DNA of 64,000 bases from contig JACPDI010000012.1 in NCBI GenBank assembly GCA_016184105.1, forward strand, positions 72,506-136,505, written 5' to 3'. Positions within the stretch are counted from its first letter, which is position 1, and each line of letters opens with the position of its first letter. The notes under the pieces were generated by a model, which was given only the letters and a program-made list of their open reading frames with translations, was not told the origin of the DNA and ran no database searches. This document shows positions 40,250 through 49,576 of the stretch, one piece after another. Made by a program: the position numbers and the translations under genes. This DNA is from Acidobacteriota bacterium. GTDB taxonomy: Bacteria; Acidobacteriota; Vicinamibacteria; Vicinamibacterales; 2-12-FULL-66-21.

Positions 40250-40415
40250 CAAGCCTGCCGCCCCGCGTCCGCCGCAAGCCTTGCGCGAAGGCAGAGCCGC
40301 TAAAGCAGGCCACCCAAAAGTTGCAAGCCTGCCGCCCCGCGTCCGCCGCAAGCCTTGCGCGAAGGCAGAGCCGCTAAAGCAGGCCACCCAAAAGTTACAA
40401 GCCTGCCGCCCCGCG
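40250..40415. repeat. 74-bp tandem repeat, 2.2 copies
   Basis: A unit starting CAAGCCTGCCGCCCCGCG recurs at 40250, 40324 and 40398, exactly 74 bases apart. Copies 1 and 2 are essentially identical over the whole unit; copy 3 stops after about 18 bases. Each unit contains complementary-looking AGCCTTGCGCGAAGGC and CTGCC/GGCAG segments able to fold. It lies upstream of the minus-strand lipoprotein and before the PDZ gene. Confidence 0.85.
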
Positions 40416-44348: not shown

Positions 44349-46127
44349 CTATTCGACGCGTCTCAGGAGGATGAGGTCCGGACGGGACGTCTTTTCCGGC
44401 TCGCCGGCGAATTTCACCGGGAGCAGGTCCTGGAACATGAAATCCCACTTCCACCGTTCCGACGGGTTGGACGCCTGGAGCCACGTCCGCGCCGGGACGG
44501 GACGCGTGAATTCGAGCGTCGCCATGGCGGCATATGCCGGATTCGACGACAGGGCGGAAGCGGCCGCGCCGCGCACGTGCGCCGCGTCCGTGTAGGTGAT
44601 TGTGGACACGCCAAGCGACACCGCGACGTTCACCAGGATCTGCCAGTCTTCCGTCGCGTCGCCCGACGGGAGCAGCACCTGTGAGGCCGCCTGCACGCGT
44701 CCCTGGCCGTTGGTGTAGACGGCATCCTTCTCGACGTAGGCCGCGCCTGGCAGGATGAAGTCCGCCGCCTCGGCCAGCGGCGTCATCGACACACCCTGCA
44801 CAACCAGGAGCGGCAACCGGCCTGAGCGGCGCGCGTCGATGAGCCAGTGCACGTCGCCGATGCTGTGCTCAGGCCCCGGGTCGAGCACGTACACCGCCTT
44901 CACGGCGCCGCTTTCGACCGCGGCGCGCAACGCGCCGGCATCCGGCTGCGCGGCACCGGCGGCGACAAGCCCGAGGTCGCGTGCGCCGTTCACGTTCGGC
45001 GCATCGACGGGGGGGACGGGGAACCGGGTGTTCGCCGGCTGCTGCTTCCGGCTCGACGTCCACGACACGGCGATCGGCGCGCCGCCGAGGGCGGAGGCGA
45101 GCTGCTTCACGAGGAACATTTCCTCGAGAGCGGCGTGGGCCGAGACGAGGAACCCGAGCCTGCCGCCGGACGCGTCGGCCCGCTCGCGCAGCTTCGCGAG
45201 CGCGTCGTGCCAGGCCATCGGCTCGAACGAGTTCGCGGCGCCGCGCACGAACGGCCTGCGGACGCGCTGCTCCCCTTCTACCCAGTGGAAGTTGAACCGG
45301 CCGATGTCGCACATCCAATAGCTGTTCACATCAGGGTTGAAGCGCGGCGTCATCCGGATCAGGCGCGCCCCCTTGGCCCACTCCGGCTTCGCCTTGATCC
45401 AGGCCGTCGTGTTGCAGCCCTTCTCGCACAGCGTGCAGATCGTGTCGACGGCGTGCGGGTTGTCCCACGGCCGCGACTTGAACCGGTAATCGCGCGTGGT
45501 AATCGCGCCTACCGGACAGACATCCATCAGATTCCCGGAGGTGAGCGAGTGCACCCCCTGCTCCTGGAAGGTGGCTATCTCGCTGCCGTTCCCGCGATCG
45601 ATGATGCCGATTTGGGCGTCGCCATCGATCTCGCGCATGTAGCGCACGCACCGCGTGCAGAGAATGCAGCGGTTGCGGTTCAGCATCAGCGTGGGGCCGA
45701 AGTCCACGTCGGCGCGAACCCCCTCGCCGTCGAAGACGCGCCGCGGGAACTCCATCCGGCTGCGGTTGGGGCCGAACGTATACGAGAAGTCCTGGAGCGG
45801 GCACTCGCCCCCCTTGTCGCACACCGGGCAATCAAGAGGATGGTTGATGAGCAGGAACTCGAACACGCTCGCCCGCGCTTCCACGACCTCAGGCGTATCG
45901 GTGTAAACCACCATGCCGTCAGTGCATACCGTCGAGCACGACGTCTGCAGCTTCGGCATCTTCTCCACCTTGACGATGCAGACGCGGCAGGACCCGTCGA
46001 CGCCGAGGCCGGGGTGATAGCAGTAGTAGGGCACCTTGATGCCGTGCTCGATCGCGGCCTGGAGGACGGTCCGGCCCTTTTCCACCGTGATCTGCCGGCC
46101 ATCAATCGTGAGCGTGACGGTTTCCAT
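44349..46127 (-). CDS. nuoG: NADH-quinone oxidoreductase subunit G (NuoG)
   Basis: 592 residues. The [2Fe-2S] ferredoxin domain (KVPYYCYHPGLGVDGSCRVCIVKVE, residues about 31-55), the His/Cys motif (HPLDCPVCDKGGECPLQD, near 96) and two [4Fe-4S] binding stretches (NRCILCTRCVRYMREI; DTICTLCEKGC) are complete. The molybdopterin-like C-terminal half is shortened compared with E. coli NuoG (908). It transfers electrons from NADH within complex I. No other nuo gene is in the window. A minisatellite lies just upstream of its start. Confidence 0.93.
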   Translation of the reverse strand: METVTLTIDGRQITVEKGRTVLQAAIEHGIKVPYYCYHPGLGVDGSCRVCIVKVEKMPKLQTSCSTVCTDGMVVYTDTPEVVEARASVFEFLLINHPLDCPVCDKGGECPLQDFSYTFGPNRSRMEFPRRVFDGEGVRADVDFGPTLMLNRNRCILCTRCVRYMREIDGDAQIGIIDRGNGSEIATFQEQGVHSLTSGNLMDVCPVGAITTRDYRFKSRPWDNPHAVDTICTLCEKGCNTTAWIKAKPEWAKGARLIRMTPRFNPDVNSYWMCDIGRFNFHWVEGEQRVRRPFVRGAANSFEPMAWHDALAKLRERADASGGRLGFLVSAHAALEEMFLVKQLASALGGAPIAVSWTSSRKQQPANTRFPVPPVDAPNVNGARDLGLVAAGAAQPDAGALRAAVESGAVKAVYVLDPGPEHSIGDVHWLIDARRSGRLPLLVVQGVSMTPLAEAADFILPGAAYVEKDAVYTNGQGRVQAASQVLLPSGDATEDWQILVNVAVSLGVSTITYTDAAHVRGAAASALSSNPAYAAMATLEFTRPVPARTWLQASNPSERWKWDFMFQDLLPVKFAGEPEKTSRPDLILLRRVE

Positions 46128-46148
46128 AACCTTGAAATCTTATCAAAG

Positions 46149-46252
46149 ACGGAAGGCGAAGGTTCAAAACGGAAGGTTCTAAACGGTGGGTTCAAAACGG
46201 TCGGTTCTGAACGGAAGGTTCAAAACGGAAGGTTCAAAACGGAAGGTTCAAA
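46149..46252. repeat. 14-bp minisatellite, left array
   Basis: About seven tandem copies of a 14-base unit, consensus ACGGAAGGTTCAAA. The last three copies (46211-46252) are identical; earlier copies vary (GTGGG, TCGG, TTCTAA). The first is lengthened by six bases. The array fills the space upstream of nuoG. Confidence 0.85.
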
Positions 46253-46318
46253 AATAGTGTTCTAAGAGTGGGTGTTACCAAAGTCCACCAGACATCGGGG
46301 ACAGCTCAGCAAGTGCAT

Positions 46319-46648
46319 ATGCCTCGCTTGCTCAAGGCGCTCTTTGTCGCGGGACTCGATTGTCAGGCGGACCGCGCGGCGTGGCGCGCTTGTATGCGAG
46401 CATGCGTCAAGGCCCGGCTCAACGCGTCGATGTGGGCGGCGGTGGGCGGCGGACTAGGATCCGTAAGATATTGCGCCCTGAATGCCACCAGAGCAGGGGC
46501 CACTGGGCCGTACGTCGCCGCCGGCGTGTTCTTTGGATGTGTGTTACTCGGTGCGAGTATGACCGGGGGCACCGCGATCGTCTATCAGTTCGGCGCGCAG
46601 GATTCGTGCGATGCGGCCTCGAACTGCGGGCCTCAACCACCATGTTAG
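46319..46648 (+). CDS. Hypothetical membrane protein in the minisatellite-bounded cassette
   Basis: 109 residues from ATG 46319 (a GTG at 46268 would give 126). The N-terminal part has Cys-rich AAWRACMRACVKARL. Hydrophobic stretches follow (MWAAVGGGLGSV and PYVAAGVFFGCVLLGASMTGG), then a Cys-rich tail (DSCDAASNCGPQPPC). Base composition is less GC-rich than neighbouring genes. No family recognised and no good ribosome-binding site, so it is tentative. Confidence 0.4.
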   Translation: MPRLLKALFVAGLDCQADRAAWRACMRACVKARLNASMWAAVGGGLGSVRYCALNATRAGATGPYVAAGVFFGCVLLGASMTGGTAIVYQFGAQDSCDAASNCGPQPPC

Positions 46649-46661
46649 TGGGAGGGTGGAG

Positions 46662-46832
46662 GTGGCTATTTCGCTTGGTCCGTTTCGCCCGCTAGCTATC
46701 ATCGTAGTGGGGTGCCTGACGTTCCTCCTTTCGATGATCGCCTTCGGCGCGATCGGCATCACGCTTTCTGTATCAGAACCTTCCGGCAGAACCTGTCGTC
46801 TTGAACCCCTCGTCTTGAACCCCCCGTCTTGA
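46662..46832 (+). CDS. Possible small membrane protein in the cassette
   Basis: 56 residues from GTG 46662, preceded by GGAGGGTGGAG. One hydrophobic helix (LAIIVVGCLTFLLSMIAFGAIGI). The C-terminus is encoded by the right-hand minisatellite (EPLVLNPPS), which argues against a conserved protein. Listed because start, ribosome-binding site and membrane helix are coherent; may be spurious. Confidence 0.3.
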   Translation: MAISLGPFRPLAIIVVGCLTFLLSMIAFGAIGITLSVSEPSGRTCRLEPLVLNPPS

Positions 46833-46837
46833 ACCTT
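46796..46837. repeat. 14-bp minisatellite, right array (opposite orientation)
   Basis: Three copies of CGTCTTGAACCC(C/T)(T/C) at about 46797-46838, the last one degenerate, with looser copies back to 46775. The reverse complement, AGGGGTTCAAGACG, is the same family as the left array unit ACGGAAGGTTCAAA (shared GGTTCAA and ACG). The two arrays thus flank 46253-46795 in inverted orientation. Confidence 0.7.
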
Positions 46838-46840
46838 TCG

Positions 46841-49576
46841 TTACTTGAACTGCGCGAGCGTGATCCTATCCGGGTCGGGGTCGACGCGCCGGAGCTGCCC
46901 TTTGAGCGGCAGCGTGACCTCGGTACGACGCTCGCGGACGCGGATCTCGTGGGTATCCGACGCGCCCGAGACGTAGCGGACGGCCAGAGGAAACACCACG
47001 TCGAACAGCTCGGGTTGCTCCTGCTGGAAGACGAGGCGCACGACGGGCCCCCCGCTGCCCCCGCCCACGATCTGGTGATCGACGCGCACCGTTGGCAGGT
47101 CCGAGCTGAAAATCCACCCGTCGAAAAACCGATCCAACGTCTCACCCGACTCCGCCTCGAACGCCTTCCTCACGTCGTCGGTTCCCGCCTTGCGGAAGCG
47201 GGATTCGAAGTAGAGGCGCCGCAGCCCGCGGAAGAAGGCGGTGTCGCCGACGAGCCGCCGCAACATGTCGAGCACGACCGCCGACTTGTTGTAGAGGACC
47301 GCGCGGAAGGCGCGGCTGTCGCCGCGGATGTGGCCGAGGCGATACCCGAGGGAAATCGGTCCCTGGTTGCTGTAAGTGACGGCCCAACGGCGCATCTGCC
47401 GCAGCACGCTCATGAACGCGTCGGCCCCGCGTTCCTCCCTGCAATACAGCGCGGCGAAGTACTGCGCGAAGCCCTCGCTGATCCACTGCTCGTGGTAGTT
47501 CTGCCAGCCCACCGCCTGGCCCCACCACTGGTGCGCGATCTCGTGCGCGAGGAAGAACGACGGAAAACTCTCGAAGTTGACGGGATCGTTGCGCCACGTC
47601 AGGCTGCTCTGCACCGGCGGCTGGTTGAGGATCGCGAAGTAGGCCGGGCTGTGGCCGCCGGGCACCTCGCTCTCGGTCACCGCGAGCGTAAAGGCGGGGT
47701 ACGGCGTGTCCCCCGCGACGCCCGAGTAAAACTGGAACATCGCGGCCGCGCGTTCCTGGAACGTCCTGCCGCGCGACTCCTGGCGGGGATTGGACGTGAC
47801 AGCGAGGCGGACGAAGGTATCTGCAGCCCCGGCCTGGCTGCCGCTGCGCACGCTCGTCGCCGCCGATTCGGCCGACGGCGTCGTCATCCTGACGTTCAAC
47901 ACGTGCGGTCCGACGAAGCGGCTGATGACGCACGCCAGATAGCGGAGCGGCCGCCGCGCGTGAAAGGTGTACTGGCGCCAGCGCGTGTCGCCGCGCTCGA
48001 TCGGCGTGCTCACGGTGCGCGTCTCCGTCAGCTCGCCGCTGCCGACGCACGCGAGATCCTCCGGGACGGTGACGCGCAGCATTGCCGTCGCGTAGTCGGT
48101 GACCGGCGCCTGCGGATACCAGTGCGCGCGGTTGCTGTAGATGTAGCGACGCTCGGGCTGCGCCAGCGGGAAATCGGACACGAATTCCTGCGTCTGGTCC
48201 GGCGCGACCGCGATCGCCTCGCGGTCCAGGACCTGCGGCCCGAGACGGCCGGCGTAGGTCACCGTCAGCGACAACTGCTGGTCCTTGAACGCCATTGACG
48301 GCAGGCTGACGATGATGCTGTTCTGGCCGACGACGCGGAAAAAGAGGAGCCGGCCCAATTGTGGCGAGCCGATGGACTGGACCGCGAGCGATTCAGCCAG
48401 CTTCAGGGTGAGGGTGCCGATCGACGGGGCCCGCACTTTGAGCGCGATCGTCGTCCGTCCCTCGACCCACTCGCGATCGGGGTTGAACGTCGTCGCGACG
48501 TCGTAGCTCTGAATGTCGTAGTCGGCCAGGTCGTCTTCGTCGTAGAACCGCCCGCGTGATTCGAGCTTCTGGGGAGACGGATACAGGGCGATGTTGCGGC
48601 GCCGGCGCCGATCGAACAGCGTCACGTCCTCCGCTTCGCTCGACGAGCGAGCGACGGTCAGCGTCCCGTGCTTCTTCGTGCGGACTTCGGCGAGAAAGTC
48701 CCCATAGCCCGGCGTGAGCGACCAGTTGCTGCCCGGTGACAGGTCGGTGGCGATCGCGAAGCTCTGCCCGATCTGCGAGTCGAAGAAGGCCCGAGCGCCG
48801 CGCGCGTCCTTTTCAGTGCCCTCGGTGGCGGTCAGCGCGCCGGAGGAGACGCGTTCGGCGTACTCAGCCGGGTTCAGGCGGACAAGAGCGGTGTCGAACG
48901 ACGCCTCGAGCGTCTCGCTGCCCGCGAAGATCCGCACCTGGCGGCGCTCGGCAGCCGGCCCGGGCGAGAACCGCATCGTGCCGTTGCCCACGAGGACGAG
49001 CGCCGTCACTCCCGCCGCGGTTTCGGCGACGTACACACGCCCTTTCGGGAGGGTGAGCGAGAAATCGATCGAGGTAATCGTCAGATCGCGTGCGGCGAAC
49101 GGCCGCGCGGTCTCGAGCTGCAGCTGGGAGAGGCCGTCGAGCGACGAGATCTGCTCCTGCCCGGAGATGAACCAGCGCTGCTCGTCCTCGCGCGAGCGCC
49201 GCACGTCGAGCCGCCAGGTGACGATCCGCCCCGAGCGGCCGCGTTCGAAGAGCGCCTCGACCAGCAGCCGGTGCCCTTCGCCCGCCACCGCACCGACCAG
49301 CGGCTGGCGGTCGCGTTCGCGAATCGTGACCTTGGTCATGCCCCCGGCGAACAGGGGCTTTGCAAAGGCTTCAGCCGCTTCGCTGTTCGCCCCGGGCGCC
49401 ACGAGCGCGAGGTAGCCGTCGAGGCTCCCGCCCAGCAGGGCTTTCTCTATCTGCTGCAGGACGGTCGCGATCCCGTCGGTCGCAGGGGCGGTCTGCGCCG
49501 CGGCAGGGGCAAACGGCGCCGCGGCGGCAATGAACGCCAGCACTGCGATGCGCGCGCGCAGCAGGGAGGACACCAC
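46841..49576 (-). CDS. Secreted M1-family metallopeptidase
   Basis: 911 residues, GTG start. A signal peptide (RIAVLAFIAAAAPFAPAAAQ) is followed by about 350 residues of unassigned N-terminal domain, then an M1 aminopeptidase-like fold. The zinc site is complete: LAHEIAHQWWG near 680 with a downstream Glu in WISEGFAQYFAALY, 18-19 residues later. The canonical GAMEN exopeptidase motif is replaced by EVPGGHSPAY, so it may not be a classical aminopeptidase. Exported and likely periplasmic. It is last of a minus-strand run. Confidence 0.88.
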   Translation of the reverse strand: MVSSLLRARIAVLAFIAAAAPFAPAAAQTAPATDGIATVLQQIEKALLGGSLDGYLALVAPGANSEAAEAFAKPLFAGGMTKVTIRERDRQPLVGAVAGEGHRLLVEALFERGRSGRIVTWRLDVRRSREDEQRWFISGQEQISSLDGLSQLQLETARPFAARDLTITSIDFSLTLPKGRVYVAETAAGVTALVLVGNGTMRFSPGPAAERRQVRIFAGSETLEASFDTALVRLNPAEYAERVSSGALTATEGTEKDARGARAFFDSQIGQSFAIATDLSPGSNWSLTPGYGDFLAEVRTKKHGTLTVARSSSEAEDVTLFDRRRRRNIALYPSPQKLESRGRFYDEDDLADYDIQSYDVATTFNPDREWVEGRTTIALKVRAPSIGTLTLKLAESLAVQSIGSPQLGRLLFFRVVGQNSIIVSLPSMAFKDQQLSLTVTYAGRLGPQVLDREAIAVAPDQTQEFVSDFPLAQPERRYIYSNRAHWYPQAPVTDYATAMLRVTVPEDLACVGSGELTETRTVSTPIERGDTRWRQYTFHARRPLRYLACVISRFVGPHVLNVRMTTPSAESAATSVRSGSQAGAADTFVRLAVTSNPRQESRGRTFQERAAAMFQFYSGVAGDTPYPAFTLAVTESEVPGGHSPAYFAILNQPPVQSSLTWRNDPVNFESFPSFFLAHEIAHQWWGQAVGWQNYHEQWISEGFAQYFAALYCREERGADAFMSVLRQMRRWAVTYSNQGPISLGYRLGHIRGDSRAFRAVLYNKSAVVLDMLRRLVGDTAFFRGLRRLYFESRFRKAGTDDVRKAFEAESGETLDRFFDGWIFSSDLPTVRVDHQIVGGGSGGPVVRLVFQQEQPELFDVVFPLAVRYVSGASDTHEIRVRERRTEVTLPLKGQLRRVDPDPDRITLAQFK

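Follow-up and report, generated by a model that had tools for sequence, protein, structure and literature searches.

The spacer between nuoG and an M1-family peptidase gene in this acidobacterial genome is filled by two arrays of a polar 14-bp unit that face each other across a short stretch of cargo DNA. Our findings point to such inward-facing arrays as a dispersed class of intergenic repeat element and not to a one-off mobile cassette: the nuoG/M1 'cassette' belongs, with many other loci, to one wider class. The window referred to below is the whole 64,000-nucleotide stretch that was analysed, which comes from the 4.24-Mb draft of the source genome (G000).

The facing arrays and their cargo

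The nuoG/M1-peptidase spacer is 713 bp long. Its features and those of the flanking genes are as follows.

44349..46127, minus strand: nuoG, NADH-quinone oxidoreductase subunit G
46128..46148, minus strand: region just upstream of nuoG, with TGATAAGAT close to the ATG (comparison with relatives)
Reaching to about 46149, plus strand: diverged partial unit of the left array (sequence)
About 46158..46260, plus strand: left array, seven units of GGTTCNNNACGNNN (14 bp) (TRF, unit scan)
46262..46783, no strand: cargo, about 0.52 kb (525 bp), GC 0.615, no DNA match in the rest of its genome or in 11 relatives
46268..46648, plus strand: hydrophobic open frame of 126 aa (109 aa from the ATG at 46319), no family match, atypical codon usage
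46656..46832, plus strand: hydrophobic frame of 58 aa whose final codons and stop lie inside the right array (sequence, codon usage)
About 46784..46837, minus strand: right array, three full units and one degenerate inner unit, inverted (TRF, unit scan)
46836..46850, minus strand: diverged unit-like sequence GTTCAAGTAACGAAA, containing the M1 peptidase stop codon (direct reading of the sequence)
46841..49576, minus strand: M1-family peptidase

TRF reported one 14-bp array at 46158-46253 (6.9 copies, score 143) and another at 46796-46835 (2.9 copies, score 73), and a scan of the locus with the unit placed seven units on the plus strand (46161-46254) and four inverted units on the minus strand (46784-46835). 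These counts bear out the original prediction, made from the sequence alone, of about seven copies on the left and at least three inverted copies on the right. Its placement of the element between the start of nuoG and the end of the peptidase gene was also correct: 33 bp separate the beginning of the left array from the nuoG ATG, and 5 bp lie between the end of the right array and the stop codon of the M1 gene. A two-unit pattern matched seven times in the window, always inside the two arrays, where shuffled sequence is expected to give 0.00 matches, and the left and right arms are 75-81% complementary across 42-51 nt. The consensus drawn from 97 units at nine loci is GGTTCWRVACGRNR, in which GGTTC and ACG are near-invariant; the other positions are variable and are partly homogenised inside each array.

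The sequence TGATAAGAT near the nuoG ATG, probably promoter-like, resembles the TGATATAAGATC and TGTATGATC that relatives have at this position. In every relative examined a TATAAGAT or TATGATC-like element precedes the nuoG ATG by only some 6-12 bp, which suggests a leaderless transcript. Elsewhere in the window, at 40250-40415, a 74-bp unit is present in 2.2 copies of 98% identity; it has internal hairpins, is unrelated to the 14-mer and is likely to be placed between genes.

The DNA between the arms had been described as a lower-GC cassette holding one or two small membrane-protein frames, and each half of that description stands in part. The GC content of the cargo, 0.615, is below the window mean of 0.673 and falls at about the 6th percentile of 525-bp windows, but the low GC of the spacer comes mostly from the arrays themselves (0.455 on the left, 0.549 on the right). 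Two hydrophobic frames do exist, but the codon usage of the 126-aa and 58-aa frames scores -0.13 and -0.08 log-units per codon against a median of +0.21 for long ORFs, and no family matched either frame significantly. Judged in this way the cargo does not look like host coding DNA. It has no DNA match in the rest of its own genome or in 11 relatives, and we reject its identification as a known gene, since comparisons with families, with plasmids and with the whole order gave no homologue that rose above background.

Distribution of the repeat

We searched the source genome and the order (162 genomes) with a three-unit query, allowing two mismatches and using the reversed query as a control. 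The source genome gave 63 matches, against 0 for the control, at about a dozen loci, which rules out a unique cassette. A second genome of the same family and another genus, Acidobacteria bacterium isolate MAG16 (JAIVJE; G006), gave 49 three-unit matches at about 35 loci, as the variant GGTTCCGCACGRNT. Among the other 160 genomes of the order one had a single two-mismatch match and the rest had none. The core GGTTC...ACG is common to unlinked loci and to two genera. The two carriers are not sisters on a NuoG tree, and the genome nearest to G006 on that tree, G005, is without the 14-bp repeat: its distribution is patchy.

Wider searches gave little. A repeat borne by viruses was rejected on zero matches among 2.9 million viral contigs, and a widespread repeat was rejected after 84,980 species had been searched for exact three-unit matches. 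That search returned several JAIVJE contigs and, here and there among unrelated bacteria, other 14-mers, which by our estimate are no more than chance could give. Nonomuraea and other actinomycete contigs also hold 14-bp arrays with a GGTTC..ACG-like core, probably by chance among many tandem repeats. Within the source genome the end of contig C35 and the start of contig C28 terminate in the same array sequence; from this sequence the two contigs are probably adjacent, the assembly having broken inside the repeat.

Across the family the M1 peptidase gene and nuoG keep their order. In G007, G008 and G011 the spacer is 45, 46 and 61 bp long. In G002, G004, G005, G006 and G009 it is ~510-610 bp long and carries a conserved antisense gene that is unrelated to the G000 cargo; this gene encodes ~140 aa with an N-terminal membrane segment and is absent from G000, G007, G008 and G011. 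The G006 spacer also holds a different, 9-10-nt CGAACC-type array. On this comparison we reject vertical inheritance of the cassette, since the relatives have either the 45-61-bp spacer or the unrelated antisense gene. Two of the checks that accompanied the original prediction, a genome search for the unit and a comparison of the site in relatives, yielded further copies of the repeat and, among the relatives compared, none with the same cassette; the outcome that was to count against the prediction thus did not arise.

Polarity and a common architecture

Both carrier genomes have many intergenic sites with head-to-tail copies of the polar 14-bp unit. Wherever two arrays are paired they face inward, the left on the plus strand and the right on the minus strand, at 10/10 loci (C12, C16, C18, C23, C28/C35, C29 and C35:8k in G000, and three in G006). 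In G006 most arrays are solos of 2-7 units, and among asymmetric solo arrays 18/21 read away from the nearer gene end (P=0.0007); for all asymmetric arrays the proportion reading away from the nearer ORF is 31/37 (P=2e-5). With gene ends taken from a simple codon-usage gene finder, an array lies a median of 9 bp from the nearer one. Overlap with a stop codon is frequent, and arrays next to start codons lie 11-48 bp from them. The read-away rule is independent of the direction of the neighbouring gene, and arrays are found between convergent, aligned and divergent genes alike.

At the variable unit positions the similarity of arms within a locus is 0.24-0.56, against a mean of 0.37 for arrays from different loci, while homogenisation within an array is 0.39-0.82. 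We reject a local inverted duplication as the origin of the arms, the left and right being no more alike than arrays of unrelated loci. Close inspection of three paired loci by eye revealed no target-site duplication, the boundaries there being blurred by diverged units.

The cargo differs at every locus compared, which does not support a discrete cassette type. The pair at C29:21728-23632 of G000 has 17 left and 9 right units and encloses about 1.5 kb of unrelated DNA: a gene for a 23S-rRNA-intervening protein and a truncated IS256-type transposase that breaks off at the start of the right array, unique in the genome except for one 72-bp match. The arms at C16, C18, C23 and C35:8k enclose almost no DNA or none.

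The same inward-facing architecture is built from unrelated 7-, 9- and 11-mers, and this marks it as a general class of spacer repeat. In a 464-kb sample of G000 we found a (GGGGTTCGA)n array facing its own complement in a spacer, a (AAAGGGGGACA)2 array facing (TGTCCCCCTTT)2, with units specific to that locus, and a heptamer family, AGGCACG/TGCCTCG, in spacers. The 9-10-nt GGGGTTCGA family occurs with the same geometry both in G006, upstream of nuoG, and in G000 (C22:133.3k). The sister genome G007 is without the 14-mer. We counted 91 tandem repeats of period 5-25 in 45.6 kb of its spacer DNA, where shuffled sequence gave 4.5 (30 against 3.3 in G000), and 28/192 spacers contain inverted 7-mer arrays, whose outer edges lie ~10-20 bp from gene ends. 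Its spacers are packed with inward-facing heptamer families (CCAGCTT, AACTCCA, GGCAGCA, GATTGCC, CTCGTGG) at ~20x the shuffled level. Polarity is kept within a heptamer family: among related left arms in G007 the comparisons are 52 same and 9 opposite, most of the disagreements listed involving the near-palindromic GCAGCTG linked to another family, and in G000 they are 6 and 0.

A parallel is offered by the heptamers GGGAATC of Xanthomonas and GGGGA(C/T)T of Nostoc, which are dispersed in spacers, lie near whichever gene adjoins the 5' end of the unit and at a distance from the following one, overlap stop codons and are often arranged as convergent inverted pairs; for these repeats of unassigned function a role through G-quadruplexes has been proposed (PMC4692102). 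The present arrays resemble them as polar intergenic tandem units that read away from the nearer ORF, form inverted pairs and overlap stop codons. They differ in that the unit is 14 bp long and its consensus GGTTCWRVACGRNR is without the G-runs that a quadruplex requires, as are the heptamer families CCAGCTT and AACTCCA; in that there are several families per genome; and in that unrelated DNA lies between the arms of two pairs, 525 bp in one and about 1.5 kb in the other.

Other known systems share single features only. REPINs and BIMEs (PMC3116915), moved by RAYT (Y1) transposases, are likewise short extragenic inverted pairs of fixed polarity, with solos as remnants and families specific to a genome, but here the arms are tandem arrays and not one imperfect palindrome, paired arms are not more conserved and the arrays do not lie beside the Y1 transposase genes of G000 or G006. 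Drosophila foldback elements and Galileo (PMC3573991) have, by description, internally repetitive terminal inverted repeats. They are eukaryotic, far larger and have a transposase lineage. The BrickBuilt minisatellite MITE of Porphyromonas gingivalis is a multi-copy intergenic minisatellite type with inverted-repeat ends, but has one direct 23-bp array between short inverted ends, whereas here the inverted ends are the arrays (PMC4596501). The TAACTGA heptamer repeats of the Beggiatoaceae are short direct spacer repeats with a patchy distribution across lineages, but lie mostly just upstream of start codons, with only one indirect (inverted) repeat reported (PMC4679880).

Origin of the inward-facing arrays

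The explanation that we favour, tentatively and at a little below an even chance, is that the nuoG/M1 locus is one copy of a dispersed foldback-like (inverted-array) intergenic element, each arm a tandem array of the polar 14-bp unit, which always reads inward from both edges of the spacer. Such an element would spread into short spacers by copying, the dispersal step and its enzyme both being postulated from the pattern; its arms would then, in the order of events that we propose, expand, contract or vanish by slippage, and unrelated DNA, such as the 525 bp at nuoG/M1, would come to lie in the middle of a few copies by chance capture. The data, all in keeping with this, show dispersed, patchily distributed copies of fixed polarity, unique cargo and, in some relatives, a short spacer where this locus has its arrays. 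Because the polarity is fixed at scattered sites, which random palindromes would not give, common descent by copying is suggested, and fixed polarity together with the core at unlinked loci and the patchy distribution is best read as the copying of inverted-array elements.

Set against copying are the want of visible target duplications, of homologous middles and of a linked transposase, arms no more alike within a locus than between loci, and many copies that consist of just 2-3 units between two genes. Several families obeying the same rule in one genome would, moreover, each need its own mobiliser. A RAYT-driven REPIN was considered and rejected: Y1 transposase genes are present, two in G000 and one in G006, but none has an array within about 1.5 kb. 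The non-autonomous mobile unit of the original prediction is partly supported: it is favoured by the other dozen or so loci, by the inward orientation of pairs and by the 45-61-bp site in three relatives, and disfavoured by the points just listed and by the many solo arrays.

Foremost among the alternatives, though in itself unlikely, is that these are ordinary minisatellites, made by replication slippage and hairpin template switching in tolerant spacers without a mobile element, with gene ends marking the limit of growth. Arrays that are homogenised within a locus and different between loci fit this well, as do locus-specific units such as the (AAAGGGGGACA)2 and (TGTCCCCCTTT)2 pair and the excess of tandem repeats in G007 spacers, and heptamers are over-represented in many bacteria (PMC4692102). 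Independent slippage does not predict a core common to unlinked loci and two genera, or a polarity fixed for each family.

More doubtful is that the arrays are functional structures under selection, either hairpins that end transcripts or insulate genes, or arrays that bind a nucleoid or RNA-binding protein. The single strand of the spacer folds much better than shuffled sequence (z = -5.1, from 20 shuffles only), arrays lie within about 10-30 bp of gene ends, and the core is conserved while other positions drift. The arms, however, have no extra mutual similarity, so that their pairing is not being maintained; most G006 copies are solo; arrays occur irrespective of gene orientation; and a hairpin needs neither polarity. 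A search of Rfam for a known RNA matched no family to the array.

The least probable of the three, a long shot, is that the arrays are repair scars in which broken spacer ends were extended 3' with repeats, by templated or terminal addition, and joined, sometimes catching filler DNA: this speculative scheme would directly give facing arrays, each running in the direction away from its gene, its one-sided and two-sided extension would match solo and paired arrays, and it agrees with the IS256-type transposase cut off at the right array of C29 and with the target duplications not being seen, but the variation of units within and between arrays is unlike the product of a single template. To our knowledge, no activity that extends ends by adding repeats is known in these bacteria, and this too counts against it.

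It is also conceivable, if improbable, that one machinery, active in several phyla, either extends ends or transposes and in this way places polar tandem arrays, whatever their sequence, at the two edges of a spacer. If this is true, the inward-facing rule would be the signature of the array-laying machinery and not of any one repeat sequence. The geometry described in Xanthomonas and Nostoc is now seen in another phylum, in repeats that have no G-runs and, within one genome, in several families of unrelated sequence. This shifts the question away from the repeat sequence and towards the process responsible for its placement. In these genomes the arrays are a likely source of spacer length, of new stop codons and of breaks in assembly.
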